From contig NZ_CP097263.1 in NCBI RefSeq assembly GCF_028622115.1, positions 9,931,501 through 9,995,500 of the forward strand: a stretch of 64,000 nt of DNA, read 5' to 3'. A program made the translations under genes and the position numbers. Each line of letters begins with the position of its first letter. Position 1 is the first letter of the stretch. This document shows positions 7,758 to 35,227 of the stretch, in pieces. The notes under the pieces are model-generated. The model had not been told where the DNA came from and did not search any database. It saw only the letters and a program-made list of their open reading frames with translations. This DNA comes from Kutzneria chonburiensis (GTDB lineage: Bacteria; Actinomycetota; Actinomycetes; Mycobacteriales; Pseudonocardiaceae).

Positions 7758-8852
7758 TCAGGCACTCCCGGACAAAGCGGGCACGGCGTCCCGAATCGCG
7801 ATCTGCCAGCGGGTGGTCGGGGCGACCCAGCCGGCCGCGCGCCGACCGGCCCGCTGCACCTGCCGCACCGTGGGCAGCAATCCCTGCTGGTACGCCGCCA
7901 TGCCGGTACGGAGATCCACGGACCGGACCAGCGAGTCGGCCAGCCGGAAGGCACCTAGCAGTGCTAGCGACGCGCCGTGACCGGCGAGCGCGGAGACGGC
8001 CGCGGCGGCGTCGCCGACGAGCACGGTCCGCCCCACGTGCCAGGTGGCCAGCTCGACCTGCGACACGGGCGCGTGGTGCAGATTTTCCGGGCAGTGCGCG
8101 AGGGCCCGGTCGACCACCCACCCCATGCCGGCGCAGCGGTCGCGCACCTCGGCGACGGGATCAGTGGGGGAGCGGTCGCCGCGGTGCACGAGGAACGCGG
8201 CGATGCGACCGTCGGCGGTCCGGCTGAACCCGGCCTGCCGGTCGGCCAGGCTGAGCACCTTCAACTCCGTGCCGAGACGCCGGCCGAGGTCGTCGTCCCG
8301 AAACAGGAAGGTCGAGCAGTGCTGGCCGAGCGGCCGCACGTACAGGCGGTCCGGCCCGAACACCAGCCGCCGCACGGTCGAGTGCAGGCCGTCCGCGCCG
8401 ATCAGGGCGTCGGTGGCGTGCACGCTGCCGTCGGACAGCTTCACCCTCATCGGCCCGTCGCCGTCTTCGACGGCCTTGACTTCGACGCCTCGCAGCACCT
8501 GCACGCGTGACGGCAGCGCCGCGATCAACGCCGCCTCCAGGTCGCCGAGCATGATCGTCAGCAGTCGTCCGCGCAGCAGGGTGGCCGTCGCGAGATAGCT
8601 GACGGTGGCCAGGGTGCCGCCGTCCTGGTCGACGTACACGATGGCCGGGATGTGGCGCCGCCGGGCGTTCAGTGTGGGCAGCACGCCCATCCGGTCGAGC
8701 ACGTCGTAGCCGGCGCCGCCGACGTCGAGCAGGTGCGCGGCGTCGCGGGGCTGCTCGTCGCGATCGACGAGCAGCACGTCCCAACCGTGCCGGCCGAGCC
8801 ACCACGCCGTGGTCAGCCCGGCCACCCCGGCGCCGCACACGAGCACCCGCAT
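7758..8852 (-). CDS. FAD-dependent monooxygenase (PHBH/TetX-like)
   Basis: 364 residues. N-terminal FAD Rossmann motif VLVCGAGVAGLTTAWWLG with E/D-type strand end LLVDRDE. The DG motif region is ALIGADGLHSTVRRLVFG, and the second FAD contact is RTVLVGDAAAAVSALAGHGASLAL, matching the GDAAH..P..G region although the usual Pro is absent. These enzymes hydroxylate aromatic or polyketide-type substrates with NAD(P)H and O2. The gene precedes a MarR regulator, an arrangement common in xenobiotic-inducible systems. The substrate is not recognisable. Confidence 0.9.
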   Translation of the reverse strand: MRVLVCGAGVAGLTTAWWLGRHGWDVLLVDRDEQPRDAAHLLDVGGAGYDVLDRMGVLPTLNARRRHIPAIVYVDQDGGTLATVSYLATATLLRGRLLTIMLGDLEAALIAALPSRVQVLRGVEVKAVEDGDGPMRVKLSDGSVHATDALIGADGLHSTVRRLVFGPDRLYVRPLGQHCSTFLFRDDDLGRRLGTELKVLSLADRQAGFSRTADGRIAAFLVHRGDRSPTDPVAEVRDRCAGMGWVVDRALAHCPENLHHAPVSQVELATWHVGRTVLVGDAAAAVSALAGHGASLALLGAFRLADSLVRSVDLRTGMAAYQQGLLPTVRQVQRAGRRAAGWVAPTTRWQIAIRDAVPALSGSA

Positions 8853-25774: not shown

Positions 25775-25829
25775 TTTCGTTGCCAAGAAGCGTTGACAGT
25801 ACTGATTCAGTTGGTGTTTGCTCCCGGAC

Positions 25830-27461
25830 ATGCCGCGTACGGAGATGTTCCGGTTCCTGCGTCGAGTCGCGACCGATCACGCCGCCGCCGCGCGGCTGGG
25901 TATGCCGGTCATGGAGTTCCGCGAGGCGCGGGTGGCGCGGGCCGCCGGCACGATGAGCCGCCGGGACGTGCTCAAGATCTTCGGCGCGTCGGCCGCCGTG
26001 CTCGGCGCGGCCAGCGTCTTACGTGCACCGAAAGCCGCAGCCGTGGCGTCCGGCGCCACCAAATCCCGCGTTGCTGTCATCGGGGCGGGCATCGCCGGCC
26101 TGAACGCGGCGCTGGCGTTGGCCGACGCCGGCGTGCGCTGCACGGTCTACGAGGCGAACGACCGCATCGGCGGGCGCATGTACTCCGAGCGTGACTACTG
26201 GGGCGGGCAGGTCACCGAGTACGGCGGCGAGCTGATCGACACCGACCACACCGTCATCCGCGACCTGTGCCGGCGCTTCGGCATCGGCCTCACCGACATC
26301 CACGCCGCCGAACCGGCCGGCAGCGTGGATGTCCTGTACTACGAGGGCTGCTACCGCTCGCACGCCCAGTTCGTCGCCGAGTTCCAGCCCGTGTACAAGG
26401 CTTTGCAGGCTGACATCCATAAGGCCGGCGAGGATGCCCCGACCTGGGACTCGTCCACCCCCTTCGGCGTCGAGCTGAGCCGGATGTCGGTGCGGGAGTG
26501 GATTTCCACCCGTGTGCCCGGCGGCTACTCGACGTGGATCGGCCGTTTCCTCGACGACGCGTACGTGGTCGAGTACGGGCGCGACACCGAGCAGCAGACG
26601 GCGATCAACCTGGCCTACATGATGATCGACCAGGCGGACCTGTCCGAGCCGGCGATCTGGGGCGCCTCCGACGAGCGCTACCACATCACCGGTGGCAACC
26701 AGACCCTGCCCGAAGCCATCGCGGCGGCCTTGCCCAACGGCACCGTTCAGCCCGGTCACCGGCTGGAAGCCTTGGTGCGCAACGGAGACGGCACTCAGAC
26801 CCTGCACTTCGACACCGGCGCCGTTCGCGTCGACCACACGATTCTGACCGTGCCCCTCGGGGTGTTGCAACGGCTCGACCTCAGCCGGGCCGGCTTCGAC
26901 GCCCGGATGAGGGGCGCGGTTTCCTCGTTGCAGATGGGTTTCTGCACCAAGCTGCATCTCCAGTTCGGCTCGCGGCCATGGGTCGGCCGTGGACCCTGGC
27001 CCGGCGTCGCCAACGGGATCAGCTTCTCCGACACCGGATATCAGCAGGTGTGGGACGCGACCACCGGGCAGCCCGGCCGTCAGGGCGTCGCCATCCAGTA
27101 CGGCGGCGGCAGTGGCGCGCTGGAGTTCCAGCCGGCCGAGCCGTTCTCCGATGCTCGGTCGGGGTACGTGCGTGCCGCCGCCCGGCAGAAGCTCCAGCAG
27201 TTCGGCGTGGTCGTGCCCGGGATCGGAAAGGCCTACGAGGGCAAGGCGACGCTGGCCGCGTGGCACCGGAATCCGTACAGCTACGGGGCATACAGCTGCT
27301 ATCCGGTCAACTACTGCCACCGGTTCGCCGGCTACGAGGGAACGCGGCAGGGCAACGTCCACATCGCCGGCGAGCACACCTCCGTCGACTCCCAGGGGTA
27401 CATGAACGGCGGCGCGGAATCCGGTGCCCGCGCCGCCGCCGAACTGCTAGCCCTGCTCTAG
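25830..27461 (+). CDS. Tat-exported flavin monoamine oxidase
   Basis: 543 residues. An unusual 40-residue segment (MPRTEMFRFLRRVATDHAAA...) precedes the twin-arginine motif SRRDVLKIFGASAAVLGAAS. FAD motif VIGAGIAGLNAALALADAG, YEANDRIGGRM dinucleotide second motif, and C-terminal FAD contact VHIAGEHTSVDSQGYMNGG are amine-oxidase hallmarks. Oxidises a primary amine or amino acid outside the membrane, giving H2O2 and ammonia. The end overlaps the converging glycosyltransferase by 15 bases. The ATG could instead be the later one before SRRD. Confidence 0.9.
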   Translation: MPRTEMFRFLRRVATDHAAAARLGMPVMEFREARVARAAGTMSRRDVLKIFGASAAVLGAASVLRAPKAAAVASGATKSRVAVIGAGIAGLNAALALADAGVRCTVYEANDRIGGRMYSERDYWGGQVTEYGGELIDTDHTVIRDLCRRFGIGLTDIHAAEPAGSVDVLYYEGCYRSHAQFVAEFQPVYKALQADIHKAGEDAPTWDSSTPFGVELSRMSVREWISTRVPGGYSTWIGRFLDDAYVVEYGRDTEQQTAINLAYMMIDQADLSEPAIWGASDERYHITGGNQTLPEAIAAALPNGTVQPGHRLEALVRNGDGTQTLHFDTGAVRVDHTILTVPLGVLQRLDLSRAGFDARMRGAVSSLQMGFCTKLHLQFGSRPWVGRGPWPGVANGISFSDTGYQQVWDATTGQPGRQGVAIQYGGGSGALEFQPAEPFSDARSGYVRAAARQKLQQFGVVVPGIGKAYEGKATLAAWHRNPYSYGAYSCYPVNYCHRFAGYEGTRQGNVHIAGEHTSVDSQGYMNGGAESGARAAAELLALL

Positions 27462-28568
27462 CAACATCTTCGCCGCGACCTCTGTCCCATCCGTACGGAC
27501 AGTGCCGGCAACCTCCTTGGCGCGGGCGGCGGTTGCGGGGTCGAGGGCCGTCGCCAGCGCGGCCGACAGGGACTCGTAAGTCGGCGTCGGGCCGTCGTGC
27601 GCCGCCCCGATGCCCAGCTCCGCTACCCGGGCCGCGAACAGCGGCTGGTCGGCGATCTGCGGCACGACCACCTGCGGCGCGCCGGCCCGGGTGGCGGTGT
27701 GCGTGGTGCCCGCGCCGCCGTGGTGGATCACCGCCGCGACGCGGGGGAACAGCGCCTGCTGGTTCACGTCGCCGACGACAAAGCAGTCCTCAACGTCGAG
27801 ATCCGCCCAGCCACGGGCCAGCACGACGCGACGACCCCGGGCGCGGAGGATGTCCACGGCGAGACGGCCGAGCTCCGGGGCGGCGTGCAGGTGCATGCTC
27901 CCGAAACCCACGTACACCGGCGGTTCCCCGGCGTTCAGGAACTCCTCGAGCTCGTCGGACAGCGGGCGGCTGTCGGGCAGGATCCACGCCCCCGTCTGCA
28001 CGACATCGAGCTCCGTCACACCCTCCAACGGGCAGATCACCGGGTCCGCCGCCAGCCACGGCCGGTCCGTGAACACGTGATCGCGCACGTTGTCCACCGG
28101 CGGCAGGCCGAGCTCGGTCAGGTGCTTGTTGAGCGGCTGCTGGTAGAAGGCGTTGATCCGGGCCACATCGGTCTGCCAGACGGCCTTCTGCAGGCCGTAG
28201 AGCTGGTAGCTGGCGAACACGTAGCGAATGCCCAGCTGCTCGGCGACCGTACGTGCCCCGGCCGGCATGAGCCCGGCGGCCACGATCGCGTCGGCGCCCT
28301 CGGCCGTCTTGGCCAGGATGTCGAATCGGGCGTCGACCAGCCCGGCCGCCAACCCGAACGGGTCCGGCTTGGCCACCGACATCAACTCGCGCACCGACGG
28401 CCCGAGCGGCACGTGCGGCACGCCGGCCCGGTCCATCAGCGTCACGAACTCCTCGTCCGGCGGCGCGCACACGACCGCCTCCGAGCCCAGCTCGCGCAGC
28501 TTGGCCGCGAGCGCCACGATCGGCTCGACGTCGCCGCGCGAGCCGTACGTCAACAACACCACACGCAT
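27447..28568 (-). CDS. GT1-family (MGT/GtfA-like) glycosyltransferase
   Basis: 373 residues. N-terminal acceptor domain starts MRVVLLTYGSRGDVEPIVAL, typical of glycopeptide-type GtfA/B enzymes and macrolide glycosyltransferases. The C-terminal nucleotide-sugar site is VAAVIHHGGAGTTHTATRAG with APQVVVPQIADQP. Transfers a sugar from an NDP-sugar to an aglycone in the cytoplasm. No biosynthetic core gene is nearby, so it may serve detoxification (as Mgt does for macrolides) rather than assembly. Confidence 0.92.
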   Translation of the reverse strand: MRVVLLTYGSRGDVEPIVALAAKLRELGSEAVVCAPPDEEFVTLMDRAGVPHVPLGPSVRELMSVAKPDPFGLAAGLVDARFDILAKTAEGADAIVAAGLMPAGARTVAEQLGIRYVFASYQLYGLQKAVWQTDVARINAFYQQPLNKHLTELGLPPVDNVRDHVFTDRPWLAADPVICPLEGVTELDVVQTGAWILPDSRPLSDELEEFLNAGEPPVYVGFGSMHLHAAPELGRLAVDILRARGRRVVLARGWADLDVEDCFVVGDVNQQALFPRVAAVIHHGGAGTTHTATRAGAPQVVVPQIADQPLFAARVAELGIGAAHDGPTPTYESLSAALATALDPATAARAKEVAGTVRTDGTEVAAKMLLEQG

Positions 28569-28624
28569 GTGGTTGCCCCCATTTTTGCTGGTAACAGGCT
28601 TACGGCGGGCAATGATGCGGCACA

Positions 28625-28650
28625 CCCCGGGCCTTGCCGCAAGGCCGGGG
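28625..28650. terminator. Hairpin terminator after the membrane-protein gene
   Basis: CCCCGG and CCTTG pair with CAAGG and CCGGGG with one bulged G and a 3-base loop. It lies 28 bases beyond the stop of the gene ending at 28678 (minus strand) and before the glycosyltransferase start. No T-run, as usual for high-GC actinomycetes. Confidence 0.6.
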
Positions 28651-28677: not shown

Positions 28678-29853
28678 TCAGCGCCAGCGGGTGAGATAGA
28701 CCTGGCGCGCCGCCAGGCTCACCGCCAGATGGTCGACCAGCGGCTCGAAGAAGGACCGCCGATAGCGCTCGTCGGTGACGGTGGACGCGACGAAGTACAG
28801 CGCCGAGAACGCGGCCAGGAAGATCGACACGTGCAGCAACTGGTTGGGCACCGGCACCTGCACGCCGAACAGGTTGCCGACCGTCGGATTCTGGTTGCTC
28901 CACGCCTTCATCACCTCGGGACGCACCGCGAGCACGCCGAACACCACGAAGAACACGAACATCACCACGCCGAACACGGCGGCCTGGAAGGCCTCGGCCA
29001 GCACGAGCACCAGCACCATGTTGACCCGCTCGACCGGGCGCAGCCGCACCGGGCCGGCGGCAACGGGTTCGTCCAGAAAGGACTCCAGCGGGCTGCCGCG
29101 CAGCTTGCCCGGATCGACCGCCGGCAGGGCGGCGCCGGCCAGGGTGCGCACCTCGTCGGACAGCATCGCGCCGAGGAACAGCAGCGCCGCCACCGCGAAC
29201 AGGCCGGCCACCAGCCACATCTGCTGGCGCGTCAGCACAGCCGTGGCCTGCCAGAGTTCCGCGGTGAAGAAACCGAACACGGTGAACAGCAGCAACAGCG
29301 GCAACGCCCGGCTGGCCATCGTGCCCAAGGTGCCGAGCTGGCGGACGGCCGCACGCACCGCCCAGGCCAGCACCGACCCGCCGCCGACGACCGTCACGGC
29401 CAGCGCCCCCAGCACCTGTAGGACATTGACCACGATTTGCAGCACGATGTCGTCGGTGGTGCCCATGAGCTTCTCGAGCACGGGAAAGGCCAGCGCGTAG
29501 AAGGCGATGACCACGATAGCCGTCACGGTCGCAGCCCGGTCGGGTTCGCCGGTGGTGTGCCGCCGGAGCCAGCGGTTCGCCAACCACGCGCCGACGGTCG
29601 GGAACACCACCCAGCCGATGAGCAGGGCGTCGTACCCGAGCAGGTAGGCGTCGTTCTGTATCAGCCGTTCGAAGTCCTCGTCCGAGGTGCCGTCGATCAG
29701 TGCCAGTGCGTCCACGACGAAGCCCAGCACGATGAGAAAGGCCAGCGCCGGCACGCTGCGGACCAGCACGTGGGTCGGCCGGCCACGCACCACCGACGGC
29801 AGTCCCCGGCGTCGGAACCATTGTTCGACCGGGTGGCGCTCCCGGTCCACCAT
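28678..29853 (-). CDS. Multi-pass membrane protein of unknown function
   Basis: 391 residues with about eight hydrophobic segments: VPALAFLIVLGFVVDALALI, LLGYDALLIGWVVFPTVGAW, TAIVVIAFYALAFPVLEKL, IVVNVLQVLGALAVTVVGGG, LPLLLLFTVFGFFTAELWQ, LVAGLFAVAALLFLGAML, VLVLVLAEAFQAAVFGVVMF and SIFLAAFSALYFVASTV. Charged ends lie outside the membrane. No catalytic motif or transporter signature was recognised. It follows aspS on the same strand by 114 bases and ends in a hairpin, so it may be its own unit. Confidence 0.8.
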   Translation of the reverse strand: MVDRERHPVEQWFRRRGLPSVVRGRPTHVLVRSVPALAFLIVLGFVVDALALIDGTSDEDFERLIQNDAYLLGYDALLIGWVVFPTVGAWLANRWLRRHTTGEPDRAATVTAIVVIAFYALAFPVLEKLMGTTDDIVLQIVVNVLQVLGALAVTVVGGGSVLAWAVRAAVRQLGTLGTMASRALPLLLLFTVFGFFTAELWQATAVLTRQQMWLVAGLFAVAALLFLGAMLSDEVRTLAGAALPAVDPGKLRGSPLESFLDEPVAAGPVRLRPVERVNMVLVLVLAEAFQAAVFGVVMFVFFVVFGVLAVRPEVMKAWSNQNPTVGNLFGVQVPVPNQLLHVSIFLAAFSALYFVASTVTDERYRRSFFEPLVDHLAVSLAARQVYLTRWR

Positions 29854-29967
29854 GTGCCTGCCCTTGCCGGTTGACGAATGACCACAGTGGCCGGTCGCGA
29901 GTGTAGCCGCCGGGTGTCCAGCCAGGTGGCGGTTGGTTCCGGCGCACTGGCGGGTGTGCCGGAACCG

Positions 29968-31229
29968 CTACGGCGTGAGTCGGTGCAGGTCTCGGGGAAC
30001 AACGTCGTCTGCCGGATGTTGGCCACGCCCAGCAGCCGCGCCGTCCACCGCTCCAGTCCGATGGCGAAGCCACCGTGCGGCGGCATGCCGTGCGCGAACA
30101 TCGCCAGGTAGCTCTGGTACGCCTCGGGCGACTCGCCGCGTTGCGCCAGCGCGGCGAGGTAGTCGGCGTGCCGGTGCAGACGCTGCCCACCGGTGACGAG
30201 TTCCAGACCGCGGAACAGCAGGTCGAAACTGTTGCTGTAGTTGGGGTCCTCGGGTGACGGATGGGTGTAGAAGGGACGTTTGGCCATGGGATAGCCGGTG
30301 ACGAAAAGGAAGTCCGAGCCGTGTTCGCGCAGCGCCCACTCGGACAGCCACCGCTCGTCGGCCGGGGCCAGGTCGATCTCGTCCTTGCCGCCCAACAACT
30401 TCTGTGCCTCGGCGAAGTGGATGGCCGGGATCTCGGCCGGCACCTCGGGCAACTCTGCTTTCAGCAGTGCGACGGCTTCCGAACGGGCCGCCACCGACGA
30501 CAGCATGCCGGCGATGGCCTCCCGCAGCACCGCCATCACGTCCCGGTGGTCGGCGATGAACCCGATCTCCGCGTCGAGACTGGTGTACTGGGCCAGGTGC
30601 CGGGCGGTGTCGTGCGGCTCGGCCCGGAACACCGGCCCGACCTCGTACACCCGCTCGAACACGCCGACCATGGCCTGCTTGAAGAACTGCGGCGACTGGG
30701 CGAGAAAAGCCTTGCGTCCGAAGTAGTCGATGCCGAACACGTTCGCGCCGGACTCGGTGGCCGAGCCGACGATCTTCGGCGTGTGGATCTCCGTGGCGCC
30801 CAGGCCGTCCAGCGCACTGCGGAACCCGGCGACCGAGGCGGCCGAGATCTCGAACCGGGCCCGTAGCAACGGATGTCGCAGCGACACCGGCGCACTGTCC
30901 AAAATGGTCGGCAGCGTCGCCGGCACGGTCGGCCGGTACAGGTCGAACGGCGGTGGCACAACGGCTTCGCCGAGCACGGTCAGCACCGGCTCGGTCAGCT
31001 CGACGCCGCCCGGCGCCTTGGGGTTGGCGGTGACCAGGCCGGTCACCTCGACAACGGTCTCCTCGGACGGCGCGGGACCGGACGTGACCACCTGGGTCAG
31101 CCCGGAGCGGTCGCGCACGACCACGAACGTCACGGATTTCAGCTCACGGCCGCGGTGCACCCAGCCGGCGACGCGAACGCGTTCGCCGACGTGCGAAGGG
31201 AGTTCCGCGGACAGGACACGGGCGATCAT
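29968..31229 (-). CDS. aspS: Archaeal-type aspartyl-tRNA synthetase (class II), frameshifted at its last codons
   Basis: About 422 residues: N-terminal OB anticodon domain (RVRVAGWVHRGRELKSVTFV), motif 2 region (GPVFRAEPHDTARHLAQY), motif 3 GFAIGLERWTARLLG. It lacks the large GAD insertion of bacterial AspRS, so it is the short archaeal/non-discriminating type that can also charge tRNA-Asn. The frame reads ...QTTLFPE then runs on; one extra C in the CCCC run at 29994-29997 restores LFPRDLHRLTP followed by a stop, the family terminus. ATG at 31229 is preceded by GGAG; a GTG two codons earlier is possible. A T-box leader precedes it. Confidence 0.88.
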
Positions 31230-31230
31230 C

Positions 31231-31440
31231 GCCACTCCAGTGGTCGAGTCGACCCCTTGGGAGTGCGGGCGAGAAGGGAAACTCGCGGTGCCACCGCACT
31301 TTCGCTCCCGCCGGAGCGGGAACCTCGTTCACTGCCACACACTCGGGAGTGTCTTCACCGGGGGACGCGGGACCGCCTTCGCAGCTACCGGCGGCTCTCT
31401 GACCCGCGTCGGTCCCCGGCTACTTGTCTCCGTCACCGTG
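31231..31440 (-). ncRNA. T-box riboswitch leader of aspS
   Basis: Read on the minus strand: Stem I base GGAG/CTCC, specifier-loop sides ACAAGTAG and TGAAGACA with specifier GAC (Asp) at 31353-31351, a long GC helix, and a distal loop with AGAGAG. Then comes a Stem III hairpin (CGCTCC-GGCG-GGAGCG), then the T-box core GTGCGGTGGCACCGCGAG with the tRNA-pairing bulge TGGC at 31293-31290. Downstream CACTCC (31265-31260) can pair with GGAGTG (31238-31233) covering the Shine-Dalgarno of aspS, so control looks translational. The specifier matches the enzyme, which strongly supports the call. Confidence 0.88.
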
Positions 31441-31478
31441 TTGCGGGGCAGCGTATCCGATGCCGCCCCCGGTCCGCC

Positions 31479-33038
31479 TCAGGATTTCAGCACGCGCTCG
31501 TGCAGCTCGGTGACCACCCGCCGGGCCGAGGCGAACGCGCCGGCCTGCCAGGTCACCAGGAAGGTCAGCCAGTCACCGGCGAAGTACACCCGCCCCTGCG
31601 GCTCGTTGAGCAGCCGATAGGACGGCGCGTCGGTGGGAATCGCCCAGCCGCCCTCGATGTACGGGGTTCGGTGCCAGGCAACGGAGAACGAGCTGGCCAG
31701 CTCGGTCCGGTACTTGTCGCCGTGGATCCGCACACCCTGCGCGACCGCCCGGGCTTCCCGCTGCGCCGGCGTCAGCTGTCCGTAGGCCACAGCGTGATCA
31801 CCGGTGTTGTAGTAGCCGATCAAGGTGCCCCGCCGGCCGTGGTAGCCGTGCGAGGGATACCAGACGTGGTCCAGGTCCAGATCGGTCTCGGTGATGCCGC
31901 CGTAGATCCGGTGGTCGGTCTCCCACCAGCGGCTCCGGTACTCCAGGCCCATCTTGCCGACGGGGTCGCCGTGATAGGTGGACAATGCGGCCTGCACGCC
32001 CGCGCCCAGGTTGTGCGGGATCTTGGCGGTGACGTGCGGCGGCATCGCGGCGATGCAGTAGTCGGCGTCGATCCGCTGCGGCTGGCCGTTTCTGGTGTAC
32101 GTGACGGAAACCCCGTTGTCCCCGTTGGTGATCCCGGTGACGGCGCAGCCGGTGCGCACCCGCGCGGGCCCGATCGCCCGCACCAGCGCGGCCGGGATCC
32201 GGTCCATGCCGCCGACCGGCTGGAACATCAGCATGGCCTGCTCGTACTCGAGCTCGAACGAGAAATGCCGGCCGACGCCGCTGGCCAGCACGTCCGACAG
32301 CGACGGCGGCGGGCCCAGCACGGTGCCGCGCTGCTCGGCCGCGCCCGGATCGACGGAGAAGCCACGGCGCAGCGATCCCGTGTACTTGTGCTGCGTTCCG
32401 ATGTCGCCCCAGTCCTCGAGGAACGCCAGCAGCCGCTGCTTGTCGTCGCTGGTCAGTGCACTGTCCAGGGCGCCTTGGTCGGTGGCCTTGGCCAGGAGTT
32501 CGCTGACGTAGCCGTACACGTCGGCCTTGGCCGTCCGGTAGCGGACCGGCGCGGTCATGCCCTCGTGGTAGATCAGCGCGCTGGCGTTGACGTTGGTGAA
32601 GACCTCCAGCGGAATGCCCAGCTCACGGCAGTAGTCCAGGGTCACCATCCACTGCGCCAGCCGCGCCGGCCCGGCGTTCATGTACTCGCCGTCGGAGAAC
32701 CGGCCGACCTGGGTCCGCCCGTCGAGATCGGTCTGGCGGGTGCCGCCGCGGACGGTGAAGTTGCGGCCGCCGGCGACGTCCCGGGCCTCGAGCACCGTGC
32801 AGTCGTAGCCGGCCTTGCCGAGCTCGTACGCGCTGGCCAGGCCGGCGATGCCGCCGCCGAGAACGATCACCTTGGCCGCCGCGCGGCCGCCGAGCGTGAA
32901 GTCGGACGGCCGCGGCGGCTGATAGTCCGGTGTGCCCATGGCGGTCGGCGCGAGGCCGAGCGCGCCCATCGTCGCGAACATCGCGCCGGCCCCGCCCGCG
33001 GCACCGACCGCGGCCAGGAAATCCCGTCGAGAAATCAT
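31479..33038 (-). CDS. Tat-exported flavin amine oxidase (L-amino-acid-oxidase-like)
   Basis: 519 residues beginning MISRRDFLAAVGAAGGAGAM, a compact Tat signal. FAD motif VIVLGGGIAGLASAYELGKA, VLEARDVAGGRNFTVRGG (the LAAO-type GGR motif with Asn), C-terminal GRVYFAGDWLTFLVTWQAGA. Oxidises an amine or L-amino acid outside the cell. It lies upstream of the aspS T-box on the same strand, with 39 bases between its stop and the leader; a shared transcript is possible. Divergence from the 25830 oxidase is large, so this is not a recent duplicate. Confidence 0.91.
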   Translation of the reverse strand: MISRRDFLAAVGAAGGAGAMFATMGALGLAPTAMGTPDYQPPRPSDFTLGGRAAAKVIVLGGGIAGLASAYELGKAGYDCTVLEARDVAGGRNFTVRGGTRQTDLDGRTQVGRFSDGEYMNAGPARLAQWMVTLDYCRELGIPLEVFTNVNASALIYHEGMTAPVRYRTAKADVYGYVSELLAKATDQGALDSALTSDDKQRLLAFLEDWGDIGTQHKYTGSLRRGFSVDPGAAEQRGTVLGPPPSLSDVLASGVGRHFSFELEYEQAMLMFQPVGGMDRIPAALVRAIGPARVRTGCAVTGITNGDNGVSVTYTRNGQPQRIDADYCIAAMPPHVTAKIPHNLGAGVQAALSTYHGDPVGKMGLEYRSRWWETDHRIYGGITETDLDLDHVWYPSHGYHGRRGTLIGYYNTGDHAVAYGQLTPAQREARAVAQGVRIHGDKYRTELASSFSVAWHRTPYIEGGWAIPTDAPSYRLLNEPQGRVYFAGDWLTFLVTWQAGAFASARRVVTELHERVLKS

Positions 33039-33095
33039 GTGTGCCACCCCGGTCGCGAGGCTGGCACAGCTGGGCCGCGACCGGCGCGGGAACAC

Positions 33096-33560
33096 CTAAA
33101 TTGCCGGTGGGTTCAGCCGATCGTGCAAGGCCGCGAGCCCGGCGGCGAAGGCGGCGAAGTCCTTGCGGCTCATGCCGTCCACGAACAGATCGCGGACCAG
33201 GGCGGCATGTTCGGGCGCGGCCTCGCGCAGCTTCTGCCAGCCGGCCTCGGTGAGGGCCGCGACGATGCCCCGCTCGTCGCCGGCGCAGCCACAACGCCGC
33301 ACCAGACCGGCCTTCTCCAGCTGCCCGACCTGGTAGGTGAGACCGCTCTTGGACGTCACGGCGGCACCGGCCAGGTCGGTCATGCGCAGCCGGCCCTCGG
33401 GCGCCTCGGCCAGCCGGGCCAGCACCTCGTACTGCTGGTGCGACAGCCCCGCGTCCCGCTTGAGCTGCTGGTCCACCAGCCGGTTGATGGCCGCGCCGGT
33501 GCTCAGGAACTGCTTCCACGCGGTCAGTTCGCGCTCGTCGAGCCAGTTCGGGTCGGCCAT
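33096..33560 (-). CDS. MarR-family transcriptional regulator
   Basis: 154 residues from ATG of MADPNWLDERELTAWKQFLS (another ATG three codons earlier). Helix-turn-helix LRMTDLAGAAVTSKSGLTYQ, wing GLVRRCGCAGDERGIVAALT with two close Cys (CGC) in the wing, which is unusual and could sense redox or metal. Divergent from an aldehyde dehydrogenase (111-base gap), its likely target. Confidence 0.9.
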   Translation of the reverse strand: MADPNWLDERELTAWKQFLSTGAAINRLVDQQLKRDAGLSHQQYEVLARLAEAPEGRLRMTDLAGAAVTSKSGLTYQVGQLEKAGLVRRCGCAGDERGIVAALTEAGWQKLREAAPEHAALVRDLFVDGMSRKDFAAFAAGLAALHDRLNPPAI

Positions 33561-33671
33561 GGCCCACATCGTACAAATTTCAACAGAGGCCGCTTGACGA
33601 GCGGTGTCGTCCGCGCCACACTGGTGTGCGGATGACGAATGGATGTGCGCACAGCGAACACGGGAGTGTCT

Positions 33672-35132
33672 GTGACGATCAAACGAGACCTGGTCATCGG
33701 CGGCGAGGACGTTCCGGCGCTGGACGGCCGCACGACAGAGGATCTCAACCCGTACACCGGGGAGGTGTACGCGGTGGTCGCGGCCGGTGGAGCGGCCGAC
33801 GTCACGCGCGCGGTGGACGCCGCCCAGCAAGCGTTTTCCACCTGGTCGACGACCTCGCCGGGGGCCCGCCGCCGGATCTTCCTCAAGGCGGCCGACATCC
33901 TGGAGTCCCGCACCGCCGAGGCGGTGGCGCTGATGGCCGAGGAGGTCGGCGGCGTGGCCGGCTGGGCCCAGTTCAACGTCGGCCTGGCCGCCGGCATGCT
34001 GCGTGACGCGGCCGCCTCGATCGGGCAGCCGCTCGGCGAGGTGCTGTCCACCGAGACCGAGGGGCAGCTGTCGCTGGCCCTGCGTGAGCCGGTCGGCGTG
34101 GTGGCGGCCTTTGCACCGTGGAACGCCCCGATCATCCTGGGCACGCGGTCGCTGGCCGTGCCGCTGGCCGTGGGCAACACCGTGGTGCTCAAGCCCAGCG
34201 AGGACGCGCCGCTGTCCTGCGGCCTGTTCCTGGCCGACGTGCTGCGCGAGGCCGGACTGCCGGCCGGGGCGTTGAACGTCGTGACCAACGCGCCGGCCGA
34301 CGCGGCCGAGGTCGCGCGCACCCTGATCGCGGACAAGCGGGTCCGGGTCGTCAACTTCACCGGCTCCACCCGGGTCGGCCGCATCATCGGCATGACCGCG
34401 GCCGAGCACGTCAAGCCGGCCGTGCTCGAACTCGGCGGCAAGAACGCGCTGCTGGTGCTGGAGGACGCCGACCTCGACTACGCCGTGAACGCCGCCACCT
34501 TCGGCGCCTTCCACAACGCCGGCCAGATCTGCATGTCGGCCGACCGGCTGCTGGTGCACCGCTCGGTGGCCGAGGAGTTCACCGCCAAGCTGGCCGCCAA
34601 GGCCGCGTCGCTGCCGCACGGCGACCCGACCGACCCCGGCACGGTGATCGGCCCGCTGATCACCGCGTCGGCCGCCCAGCGGGTGTCCGAGCTCGTCGCC
34701 GACGCCGTGGCCGCCGGCGCCTCGCTCCGGGCCGGCGGTGGTGACGCCGACGCAAGCCGCTATCCGGCGACGGTGTTGTCCGGCGTCACCCCGGACATGC
34801 GGATCTTCACCGAGGAGATCTTCGGGCCCGCGGTCACCGTGACCACAGTGGACGACGACGAGCAGGCCATCGCCATCGCCAACGACACCGACTACGGCCT
34901 GACCGCCGGCGTCATCACCGAGGACTCCCGCCGCGGCCTGGCCATCGCCCGCCGGCTCCGCACCGGCATCGTGCACGTCAACAACCAGACCGTGGACGAC
35001 GAGCCCCAGGTGCCCTTCGGCGGCGTGAAGTCCAGCGGCTACGGCCGGTTCGGCGGCCGGTGGGGCGTGGAGGCCTTCACCGCCACCCGCTGGGTCACCG
35101 TGGCCGGCCAGCACAACCACTTCCCGTACTGA
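33672..35132 (+). CDS. Aldehyde dehydrogenase family protein
   Basis: 486 residues from GTG at VTIKRDLVIGG, with GGGAG five bases upstream; an ATG 11 codons earlier has no such site. NAD fold GSTRVGR, catalytic Glu in VLELGGKNALLVL, catalytic Cys in AGQICMSADRLLVH, and GYGRFGG near the end. Closest in pattern to vanillin/benzaldehyde dehydrogenases (GQICMS). Oxidises an aldehyde to the acid with NAD(P) in the cytoplasm, probably controlled by the divergent MarR. Confidence 0.93.
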   Translation: MTIKRDLVIGGEDVPALDGRTTEDLNPYTGEVYAVVAAGGAADVTRAVDAAQQAFSTWSTTSPGARRRIFLKAADILESRTAEAVALMAEEVGGVAGWAQFNVGLAAGMLRDAAASIGQPLGEVLSTETEGQLSLALREPVGVVAAFAPWNAPIILGTRSLAVPLAVGNTVVLKPSEDAPLSCGLFLADVLREAGLPAGALNVVTNAPADAAEVARTLIADKRVRVVNFTGSTRVGRIIGMTAAEHVKPAVLELGGKNALLVLEDADLDYAVNAATFGAFHNAGQICMSADRLLVHRSVAEEFTAKLAAKAASLPHGDPTDPGTVIGPLITASAAQRVSELVADAVAAGASLRAGGGDADASRYPATVLSGVTPDMRIFTEEIFGPAVTVTTVDDDEQAIAIANDTDYGLTAGVITEDSRRGLAIARRLRTGIVHVNNQTVDDEPQVPFGGVKSSGYGRFGGRWGVEAFTATRWVTVAGQHNHFPY

Positions 35133-35227
35133 GGCCACGTAGGGGTCCGTCTCAGGGTTATCCCCCGATACGACACTGCCTCACGTCCTATACCGTGCGT
35201 CATCGGACCTCAAAGGGGAGTGAGTCG

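Follow-up and report, generated by a model that had tools for sequence, protein, structure and literature searches.

A locus in Kutzneria chonburiensis raises the question of how an actinomycete controls a second aspartyl-tRNA synthetase (AspRS) and when that enzyme is used. Within the 64,000-nucleotide stretch of DNA analyzed here (the window), a gene for an archaeal-type AspRS (aspS2, aspartate--tRNA(Asn) ligase, identified by family match and alignment to relatives) occupies positions 29697 to 31229 of the minus strand, and an earlier note had read the segment in front of it, 31231 to 31440, as a complete T-box riboswitch with an Asp specifier. In the accessible parts of the sources, translational T-boxes are described in front of ileS in Actinobacteria (Seliverstov 2005, PMC1262725; PMC7583486), a small number of translational T-boxes are said to have a long Stem I (PMC7583486), and one survey counts 32 actinobacterial T-boxes (PMC2494555). 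A second AspRS in Actinomycetales is presented as rare, with no role stated in the part of the source available to us (PMC4206432); the same part gives 15 genera with an extra AspRS beyond Deinococcus-Thermus, and the 10 that lack asparaginyl-tRNA synthetase (AsnRS) are primarily Actinomycetales.

The aspS2 leader is a T-box riboswitch

The window region from 30000 to 33000 was compared with all Rfam families (cmscan, E up to 1). RF00230 matched at 31445 to 31262 of the minus strand (the strand of all leader features below) with 71.1 bits and an E value of 1e-14, aligning over model positions 1 to 219, the full length of the model; no other Rfam family matched in this region at E up to 1. The score falls under the curated cut-off (gathering score, 93 bits), which was counted against our best explanation, as were the leaders of relatives that the model missed (see below). 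All motifs quoted in the earlier note were found on the minus strand, and they lie inside the proposed segment; the leader itself goes on past 31440, to about 31445. Across the whole genome (10.4 Mb, one contig), RF00230 matched two places at E ≤0.001: the window leader and a second place (35.7 bits) that is an ileS leader as judged by the downstream frame.

Apart from the K. chonburiensis genome itself, a homologue of the synthetase was present in 22 of 149 relatives, a patchy distribution. A scan of a collection of species genomes gave 565 confirmed loci, the best 80 of which were taken as named loci; genera among these 80 are Nonomuraea, Streptosporangium, Amycolatopsis, Kribbella, Micromonospora, and Catenulispora. 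The relatives, the best 80 of 565, and the window together supplied 103 archaeal-type aspS genes, with some genomes seen twice. A T-box motif was found upstream of 101 of the 103 (among the matches listed); the other two were L035, in which the gene start was not covered, and L063, from a metagenome bin. These motifs before homologous aspS genes and the E value of the Rfam match rule out a chance match, and the element in the window is a real T-box riboswitch, as the earlier note had claimed. RF00230 was also run on eight aspS2-carrying genomes. It recovered the aspS2 leader, by position, in four; in two Catellatospora genomes and one Nocardioides genome it matched ileS leaders only and missed the aspS2 leaders, and in the metagenome bin it gave no match.

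Anatomy of the leader

Stem I (31342 to 31441; supported by Rfam match, alignment, and covariation) is of the long form, with a K-turn and specifier loop at its base and a double T-loop at its tip. Among 52 aligned sequences, 18 of 25 predicted pairs showed at least one two-sided change that kept pairing. The 5' side of the specifier loop, written ACAAGTAG and ACAAGUAG, lies at 31420 to 31427 (Rfam match, letters read, and alignment), and the 3' side, written TGAAGACA and UGAAGACA, was read from the letters at 31357 to 31350 and contains GAC. AGAGAG (31395 to 31400), the first half of the elbow-binding double T-loop, was invariant in the 52 sequences, and the distal loop GGUAGCUGCGAA (31378 to 31389) forms the second half by Rfam match and alignment. 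The Rfam match and the Stem I alignment thus bear out the long Stem I with AGAGAG and a distal T-loop that had been proposed.

Between Stem I and Stem III (31304 to 31323; Rfam match, letters read, and fold prediction) lies an 18-base linker (31324 to 31341) at the place where relatives have Stem II and IIA/B. The distance from GAC to UGGN is 60 nt in the window copy, compared with 106 to 108 nt in three other Kutzneria. The window copy therefore lacks Stem II and IIA/B while retaining the long Stem I, and the description of the T-box as complete is inexact in this respect. Stem II and IIA/B are optional in the T-box family, and glyQS leaders occur without them. Four Kribbella leaders that were measured have a similar specifier-to-bulge distance (60 to 68).

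Stem I itself varies among homologues. It is very short in Catellatospora and Nocardioides aspS leaders (each at about 7770 to 8000 of its locus): in Nocardioides L111, GAC sits in a hairpin loop, and in the shortened Stem I of Catellatospora L088, L089, L090, and L092, readings of GAC followed by G and of AUC followed by A are both possible. A Streptomyces serS leader (L182, 1501 to 1567) has a Stem I without the elbow-binding tip and retains a specifier loop with UCC.

A −10-like element, TACGCT (31450 to 31455), precedes Stem I and was identified by its conserved position before GACGGAG. Of 82 leaders with a located Stem I (among the matches listed), 81 had the pattern TANNNT 20 to 23 nt before GACGGAG, and none of the 82 had it in a control stretch 40 to 60 nt upstream. 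The leader thus probably has its own promoter, with transcription starting just upstream of Stem I; a plain sigma-70 pattern scan of the window leader found no full promoter.

Specifier codon and tRNA match

Specifier codons were read at a fixed offset from the K-turn, with GAC not required. GAC, found at 31351 to 31353 in the window (Rfam match), occupied the specifier position in 93 of the 103 aspS2 leaders and, by eye, in three more (among the matches listed): L027, which the rule misread (it shows GAAGACCCTCC), and L076 and L112, each with one extra base. The remaining rows comprised five leaders with a shortened Stem I and the two without a T-box. A Stem I set was also assembled (78 of 92 sequences, of which 52 were aligned); it had been picked on the letters AGAC, and GAC conservation was therefore taken from the fixed-offset reading and not from that alignment.

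A covariance model of Stem I (R1), built from the 52 sequences, matched 31 places in 24 of 199 Streptomyces genomes. Thirty Streptomyces leaders belonging to this Stem I family were read: 18 carried GAC, 8 carried UCC, and 1 carried AUC, and the 3 that the rule could not read appeared by eye to be GAC (L173), UCC (L182), and remnant-like (L183). The genes behind UCC leaders L186 and L177 scored as seryl-tRNA synthetase (SerRS) genes (392 and 367 bits; cut-off, 301.65), those behind L187, L179, L180, L188, and L189 encode SerRS by N-terminal likeness, and L132 precedes a gene remnant. Downstream of GAC leaders L178, L162, L169, and L185, genes scanned as aspartate--tRNA(Asn) ligase, and the other Streptomyces GAC leaders precede AspRS genes by likeness. 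As a separate observation, L132 (about 1500 to 1745) shows a UCC Stem I followed, by eye, by the C-terminal end of SerRS, a decayed T-box serS gene, and L183 resembles another remnant.

From these readings, the specifier is GAC, for Asp, and it is exchanged for UCC before serS at one position of a homologous stem. The codon changes with the enzyme at that position, an outcome that satisfies the check on homologues called for in the earlier note, and the Asp assignment of the earlier note stands on this switch as well as on the conservation of GAC. Other specifier frames (AGA or ACA, for Arg or Thr) were considered and are ruled out by the UCC switch before serS at the same position. They are also contradicted by the base after the codon, which varies (A, C, or G), and by L076 and L112, in which the extra base follows an unchanged GAC.

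In a phylum-wide search, R1 matched 75 of 396 genomes; three places scored over 85 bits and the rest between 27 and 65 bits, and 27 of the latter, when read, resembled ileS, ilvD, and other T-boxes. Judged by the leaders read, the switch is kept in many actinomycetes. Elsewhere in the phylum, T-box-like leaders (L141 to L145) precede likely dihydroxy-acid dehydratase genes, as assigned by eye, apparently with GCC in the specifier loop.

One tRNA-Asp(GUC) gene was found in the genome by pattern search, and it carries G73. The T-box bulge UGGC (31290 to 31293; DNA TGGC within GTGCGGTGGCACCGC, bulge UGGCACC) is complementary to the tRNA 3' end GCCA, that is, to an NCCA end with G73, which C would pair and U would pair by wobble. 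Among 77 loci matching GGTGGNACC in the best 80 of 565, 67 have C and 10 have T as the fourth base of the bulge, and the Streptomyces asp leader L185 has A there. Overall, the bulge is in broad agreement, and the U in 10 of 77 and the A in L185 were counted against our best explanation.

Antisequestrator, Shine-Dalgarno masking, and level of control

Downstream of Stem III, the antisequestrator is composed of helix A1 (5' strand AGUGCGG, 31294 to 31300; 3' strand CCGCACU, 31262 to 31268), assigned by pairing across homologues, and helix A2 (5' strand GCGAG, 31282 to 31286; 3' strand CUCGC, 31269 to 31273), assigned by pair covariation. Of the 103 3' modules, 92 were used (9 duplicate modules, L063 without a T-box motif, and L035 were left out), and 60 of these 92 distinct modules were aligned. 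In the 60 modules, A1 and A2 were paired in 99.0% of 717 cells, and 6 of 12 pairs showed two-sided changes; when the partner was shifted by 1 to 3 columns, at most 63.6% paired. Covariation was 0.223, compared with 0.106 ± 0.008 after shuffling, and the number of pair types was reached by 18 of 500 shuffles, statistics that the relatedness of the sequences inflates here and for the third helix described below. A1 formed 7 of 7 pairs in 92 of 92 modules, with the partner strand defined as the best-matching one within a short stretch.

The 3' strand of A1 runs on into CACUCC (31260 to 31265; permutation and fold prediction), the complement of GGAGUG in the Shine-Dalgarno (SD) region (31233 to 31238; homologue strings and fold prediction) before the ATG start codon of aspS2 (31229 to 31227, letters read). 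The A1 3' strand overlaps the anti-SD strand, so the antisequestrator and the OFF helix formed by CACUCC and GGAGUG (P2) are mutually exclusive. Anti-SD and SD strings vary jointly across genera (ACUCC/GGAGU, ACCUCC/GGAGGU, and CACCUCCGG/CUGGAGGUG), and in 22 leaders with distinct anti-SD strings, pairing with the leader's own SD beat permuted pairing, with 4 of 2000 permutations reaching the observed value. The initial expectation that P2 would be present in every homologue was contradicted. Over the SD core, P2 comprised 5 or more contiguous pairs in 56 of 92 leaders. It had fewer than 5 in 32 of 92, two of which had none, and these leaders must rely on masking of another kind.

Fold prediction for the segment spanning Stem III through the start codon gave a ground state with the SD masked and an energy of −48.7, compared with −44.0 when A1 and A2 are forced (a difference of 4.7 kcal/mol); these energies are those of nested folds and give no verdict on a pseudoknot. 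The fold energy of the 81-nt 3' module was unexceptional (z −1.34; 18 of 200 shuffles as good), and a 64-nt piece of it gave z −2.47. SD masking by CACTCC, as first proposed, is thus supported in the predicted ground state of the window leader and extends, with a helix of at least 5 pairs, to just 56 of the 92 homologues.

A pattern scan found no terminator-like site between the antisequestrator and the start codon and one terminator-like pattern at 31298 to 31284, inside the antisequestrator. If the leader were a transcriptional T-box that chooses between terminator and antiterminator, as in Bacillota, this pattern might be its terminator, and a long Stem I with an elbow-binding tip is described as typical of transcriptional T-boxes in the accessible part of one source (PMC7583486). 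The pattern folds the T-box bulge itself, however, and lacks a long U tract; downstream of it, as far as the start codon, the scan showed nothing resembling a terminator, and the A1 3' strand extends into the SD complement, which varies together with the SD. We regard transcriptional control as highly improbable. Control is probably translational and OFF by default, since no terminator is found past the antisequestrator and the predicted ground state masks the SD, and this agrees with the level of control inferred in the earlier note.

A covarying third helix in the expression platform

The loop of the antisequestrator contains UCCCUU (31274 to 31279), which is complementary to AAGGGG (31253 to 31258) in the linker directly behind A1. 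This helix, P1, was assigned by covariation and by permutation of partners, and it takes different forms in different leaders: CCCUU/AAGGG, CCCC/GGGG in Kribbella, CCCAAA/UUUGGG in Catellatospora, GAUCCC/GGGAUC in two Micromonosporaceae, GCCC/GGGC in Nocardioides, and CCCUC/GAGGG in serS leaders. In the alignment, 89.7% of 351 cells were paired, with slid versions reaching at most 69.5%. On the same inflated scale as for A1 and A2, covariation was 0.331 against 0.165 ± 0.016 in shuffles, and two-sided changes were seen in 32 cells against 9.0 in shuffles. Own partners paired better than permuted partners in 1000 of 1000 shuffles with 62 distinct combinations and in 2000 of 2000 with 30.

The same search was applied to other leaders. 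In 17 ileS-type leaders, it gave 9.59 compared with 11.57 for shuffled letters and so did not rise above chance, whereas 19 Streptomyces asp leaders gave 13.11 compared with 8.53 and 8 ser leaders gave 13.75 compared with 5.94. The ileS-type set comprised 17 of 26 leaders, since the pieces read from the other 9 contained no T-box motif, and the assignment to ileS was made by eye from the frame downstream. By these comparisons, P1 is a conserved, covarying third helix of the expression platform that appears to be new and was not seen in the 17 ileS-type leaders compared.

P1 and P2 may form together in the OFF state as an H-type pseudoknot that excludes A1, a refinement of our best explanation toward which we lean slightly. 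With A1 and A2 formed, the loop and the 3' end of A1 would be a dozen pairs apart, a span for which the three-base linker seems too short, and P1 was placed in the OFF state for this reason. Loop lengths of 8, 1, and 14 nt are compatible with an H-type knot, and the covariation and partner permutations of P1, its own version in serS leaders, and the lack of a signal above chance in the 17 ileS-type leaders are all consistent with such a role. Against this, two of five P1 measures were within reach of shuffles (161 and 57 of 500), the outer pair was unpaired in 24 of 57, and P1 was defined by its best match within a short stretch, which means that its presence in 92 of 92 modules is no test in itself. 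In the window, moreover, P1 faces competition from a local hairpin within the linker, and SD masking is already achieved in the nested fold; P1 could act instead in the ON state or in folding.

The AspRS2 enzyme

AspRS2 matched NF003483, named aspartate--tRNA(Asn) ligase, with 513.6 bits (cut-off, 353) and TIGR00458 with 324.9 bits, under the cut-off of 368.4. The best-scoring solved chain was 1n9w (386 bits; residues 4 to 413 align to 2 to 415), and the protein has no bacterial insertion domain. A bacterial housekeeping aspS lies elsewhere in the genome (C1:287219-288961, 692.7 bits). An archaeal-type second AspRS, as had been proposed from the window, is borne out by the NF003483 match, the solved relative, and the additional bacterial aspS, the search for which the earlier note had suggested as a check.

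The part of aspS2 that could be aligned to relatives spans 31229 to 29991. Its last codons (29970 to 29997, minus strand) are out of frame relative to four Kutzneria, and the frame reads into the next gene, to 29697; the break may be either genuine or a sequencing error. The frame break and the missing Stem II suggested a pseudogene, but the dN/dS of the aspS2 body against the four Kutzneria (0.15 to 0.18) does not support decay.

AspRS2 is auxiliary, a spare synthetase beside the bacterial AspRS, because the genome carries the bacterial aspS as well. A bacterial aspS over the cut-off was likewise found in 35 of 37 other genomes with a T-box aspS2 that were queried; the two without it were G741 (Sphaerisporangium corydalis) and G765 (a metagenome bin). 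In the draft genome of S. corydalis (L059), the T-boxed archaeal-type enzyme may thus be the only AspRS.

His and Pro at two positions of the anticodon domain mark nondiscriminating AspRS. AspRS2 and its relatives have H25 and P73 in 10 of 10 readable rows (11 aligned); 1n9w has H and P at these positions, and 1b8a has W and K. No AsnRS match over the cut-off was found in the genome. The nearest relatives, H25 and P73, and the lack of such an AsnRS match support production of Asp-tRNA-Asn, and AspRS2, which resembles nondiscriminating AspRS2 in sequence, probably charges tRNA-Asn. These features, including 1n9w as the best match and the name of the NF003483 family, would also fit an enzyme kept mainly for Asn supply, providing Asp-tRNA-Asn to the amidation route known from Deinococcus-Thermus and Clostridium acetobutylicum. 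The readable aspS leaders, however, specify GAC (Asp) and not AAC (Asn), and in related actinobacteria the bacterial AspRS already serves both tRNA-Asp and tRNA-Asn. Asn supply as the main role is quite improbable on this evidence.

Gene neighborhood and Streptomyces synthetase pairs

Frames around aspS2 in the window and in the best 80 of 565 loci were compared by all-against-all BLAST. A conserved gene neighborhood was rejected for these loci, clusters being mostly confined to Nonomuraea, Kribbella, or Micromonosporaceae. Two clusters that crossed genera (29 and 27 of the best 80 of 565 loci) were frames opposite aspS2 and its leader, and a third (22 loci, window included) was a MarR-like regulator at differing distances and on differing strands. 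In the window, the MarR-like frame lies at 33096 to 35138 (minus strand), within 8 kb of aspS2, a range in which such a frame is also seen at 22 of the best 80 of 565 loci. Two flavin amine oxidases are encoded nearby, at 25818 to 27461 (plus strand) and 31479 to 33095 (minus strand), and both genes matched just one locus, Kutzneria L036, at the threshold used (among the matches listed). A glycosyltransferase gene at 27447 to 28625 (minus strand) is related to the rifamycin-inactivating Rgt (503.7 bits; curated cut-off, 800).

In Streptomyces, T-boxed serS and aspS genes were observed side by side at loci L190, L191, and L192, about 3 kb apart. Genomes G655 and G584 each have a UCC leader with serS about 3 kb from a GAC leader with aspS, and in G706 serS and aspS are likewise adjacent. 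No single conserved set of genes was found between or around these pairs; nearby frames include APH-like matches (23.8 and 25.4 bits; cut-off, 23.2), an RlmN/Cfr-like match (93.3 bits; cut-off, 290), and a JmjC match. The adjacency of T-boxed serS and aspS suggests inducible spare synthetases.

Inducible resistant synthetases have precedent, and AspRS2 may be an insensitive enzyme that uncharged tRNA-Asp induces when a natural inhibitor blocks the housekeeping AspRS. Its auxiliary status in the 35 of 37 carriers queried and its patchy distribution among relatives would fit such a role, as would the Streptomyces neighbors with their weak APH-like and RlmN/Cfr-like matches. On the other side, at the window gene neither an inhibitor nor a biosynthetic cluster could be identified, the genera have no partner gene in common at a constant position, and amino acid shortage would give the same signal and is an equal trigger. 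We put the inhibitor explanation forward tentatively, with the odds somewhat against it.

Discussion

The analysis supports, with a probability of about 0.86, a T-box that senses tRNA-Asp and controls the translation of an auxiliary archaeal-type AspRS. In the proposed ground state, the 3' strand of A1, as CACUCC, would pair with GGAGUG of the SD and block ribosome entry, and the linker AAGGGG could also pair with the antisequestrator loop UCCCUU. tRNA-Asp, with anticodon GUC, would be selected at two points, through the specifier-loop GAC and, at its elbow, through the tip of Stem I. The GCCA end of uncharged tRNA-Asp would then pair with UGGC and hold A1 (AGUGCGG/CCGCACU), and with A1 held, the SD would be freed and AspRS2 made; charged tRNA would be unable to hold A1. 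The spare enzyme would accordingly appear once the housekeeping AspRS falls behind, and it would probably charge both tRNA-Asp and tRNA-Asn, with Asp-tRNA-Asn then amidated. Sequence and covariation underlie the T-box identity, the specifier, the bulge match, A1/A2, P1, and the auxiliary status of AspRS2; we infer tRNA binding, the direction of the switch, the translational level, charging of tRNA-Asn, and the trigger, be it an inhibitor or Asp shortage.

The leader shares features with known systems and differs from each. In common with the ileS T-boxes of Actinobacteria, it has an A1/A2 antisequestrator, a UGGN bulge, and Stem III, and it would use SD sequestration in place of a terminator, as described for the ileS type in the accessible part of one source (PMC1262725). 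It lacks the ultrashort or intermediate Stem I of ileS translational T-boxes: Stem I is shortened and the bulge is UGGU in the six ileS leaders that were read, and no P1 was seen in the 17 tested, whereas the window leader has a long Stem I with an elbow-binding tip, GAC, UGGC, and P1. The whole RF00230 model aligns, yet the leader scores 71.1 bits against 93, is without Stem II, and appears to have a translational platform.

Other parallels concern the enzyme and its regulation. A T-box reportedly controls tRNA-dependent amidation in C. acetobutylicum (Saad 2012, as cited in PMC4206432), likewise a bacterium with extra AspRS enzymes; that system reportedly has Asn specificity, whereas the window leader has an Asp specifier, comes from an actinomycete, and is probably translational. 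The best-scoring solved relative of the enzyme, Thermus thermophilus AspRS2 (1n9w), is named nondiscriminating and archaeal-type, and its gene is not known to be preceded by a T-box.

In the literature searched, T-boxes in front of actinobacterial aspS or serS genes were not encountered, and an earlier description elsewhere is possible. TBDB collects class I and class II T-boxes and includes Asp in its table of specifier usage; its description, in the accessible part, names no actinobacterial aspS or serS family, and its entries may include these leaders (PMC7778990). In light of both points, the system was rated as the same sensor logic with new features. The sensor logic is known. Apparently new, as read from the sequences, are the combination of Asp/Ser specificity with a long Stem I, the conserved third helix in a translational platform, and the targeting of a spare synthetase. 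The window copy, with a long Stem I and no Stem II, and the adjacent T-boxed serS and aspS genes of Streptomyces likewise appear to be new.

A joint reading would combine the separate parts: long-Stem-I translational T-boxes would place spare Asp and Ser synthetases under the control of uncharged tRNA, with Ser reached by codon swap, the OFF state would be an SD-masking H-type pseudoknot built from the antisequestrator's own loop, and the enzymes would act as a shield against natural inhibitors. As a whole we consider this combination unlikely.

The tRNA-Asp-sensing reading bears on the biology of these organisms in several ways. A sensor of tRNA-Asp would tell when the spare AspRS is used, namely, when tRNA-Asp goes uncharged, and would thereby open the enzyme's role to direct experiment. 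Natural variation among the leaders also offers experiments on T-box design, with a long Stem I retained where Stem II is missing, Stem I shortened in Catellatospora and Nocardioides, the codon swapped to Ser, and a third helix conserved in the expression platform. Finally, spare synthetases marked by a T-box may serve as a guide to the producers of natural synthetase inhibitors or to their targets.
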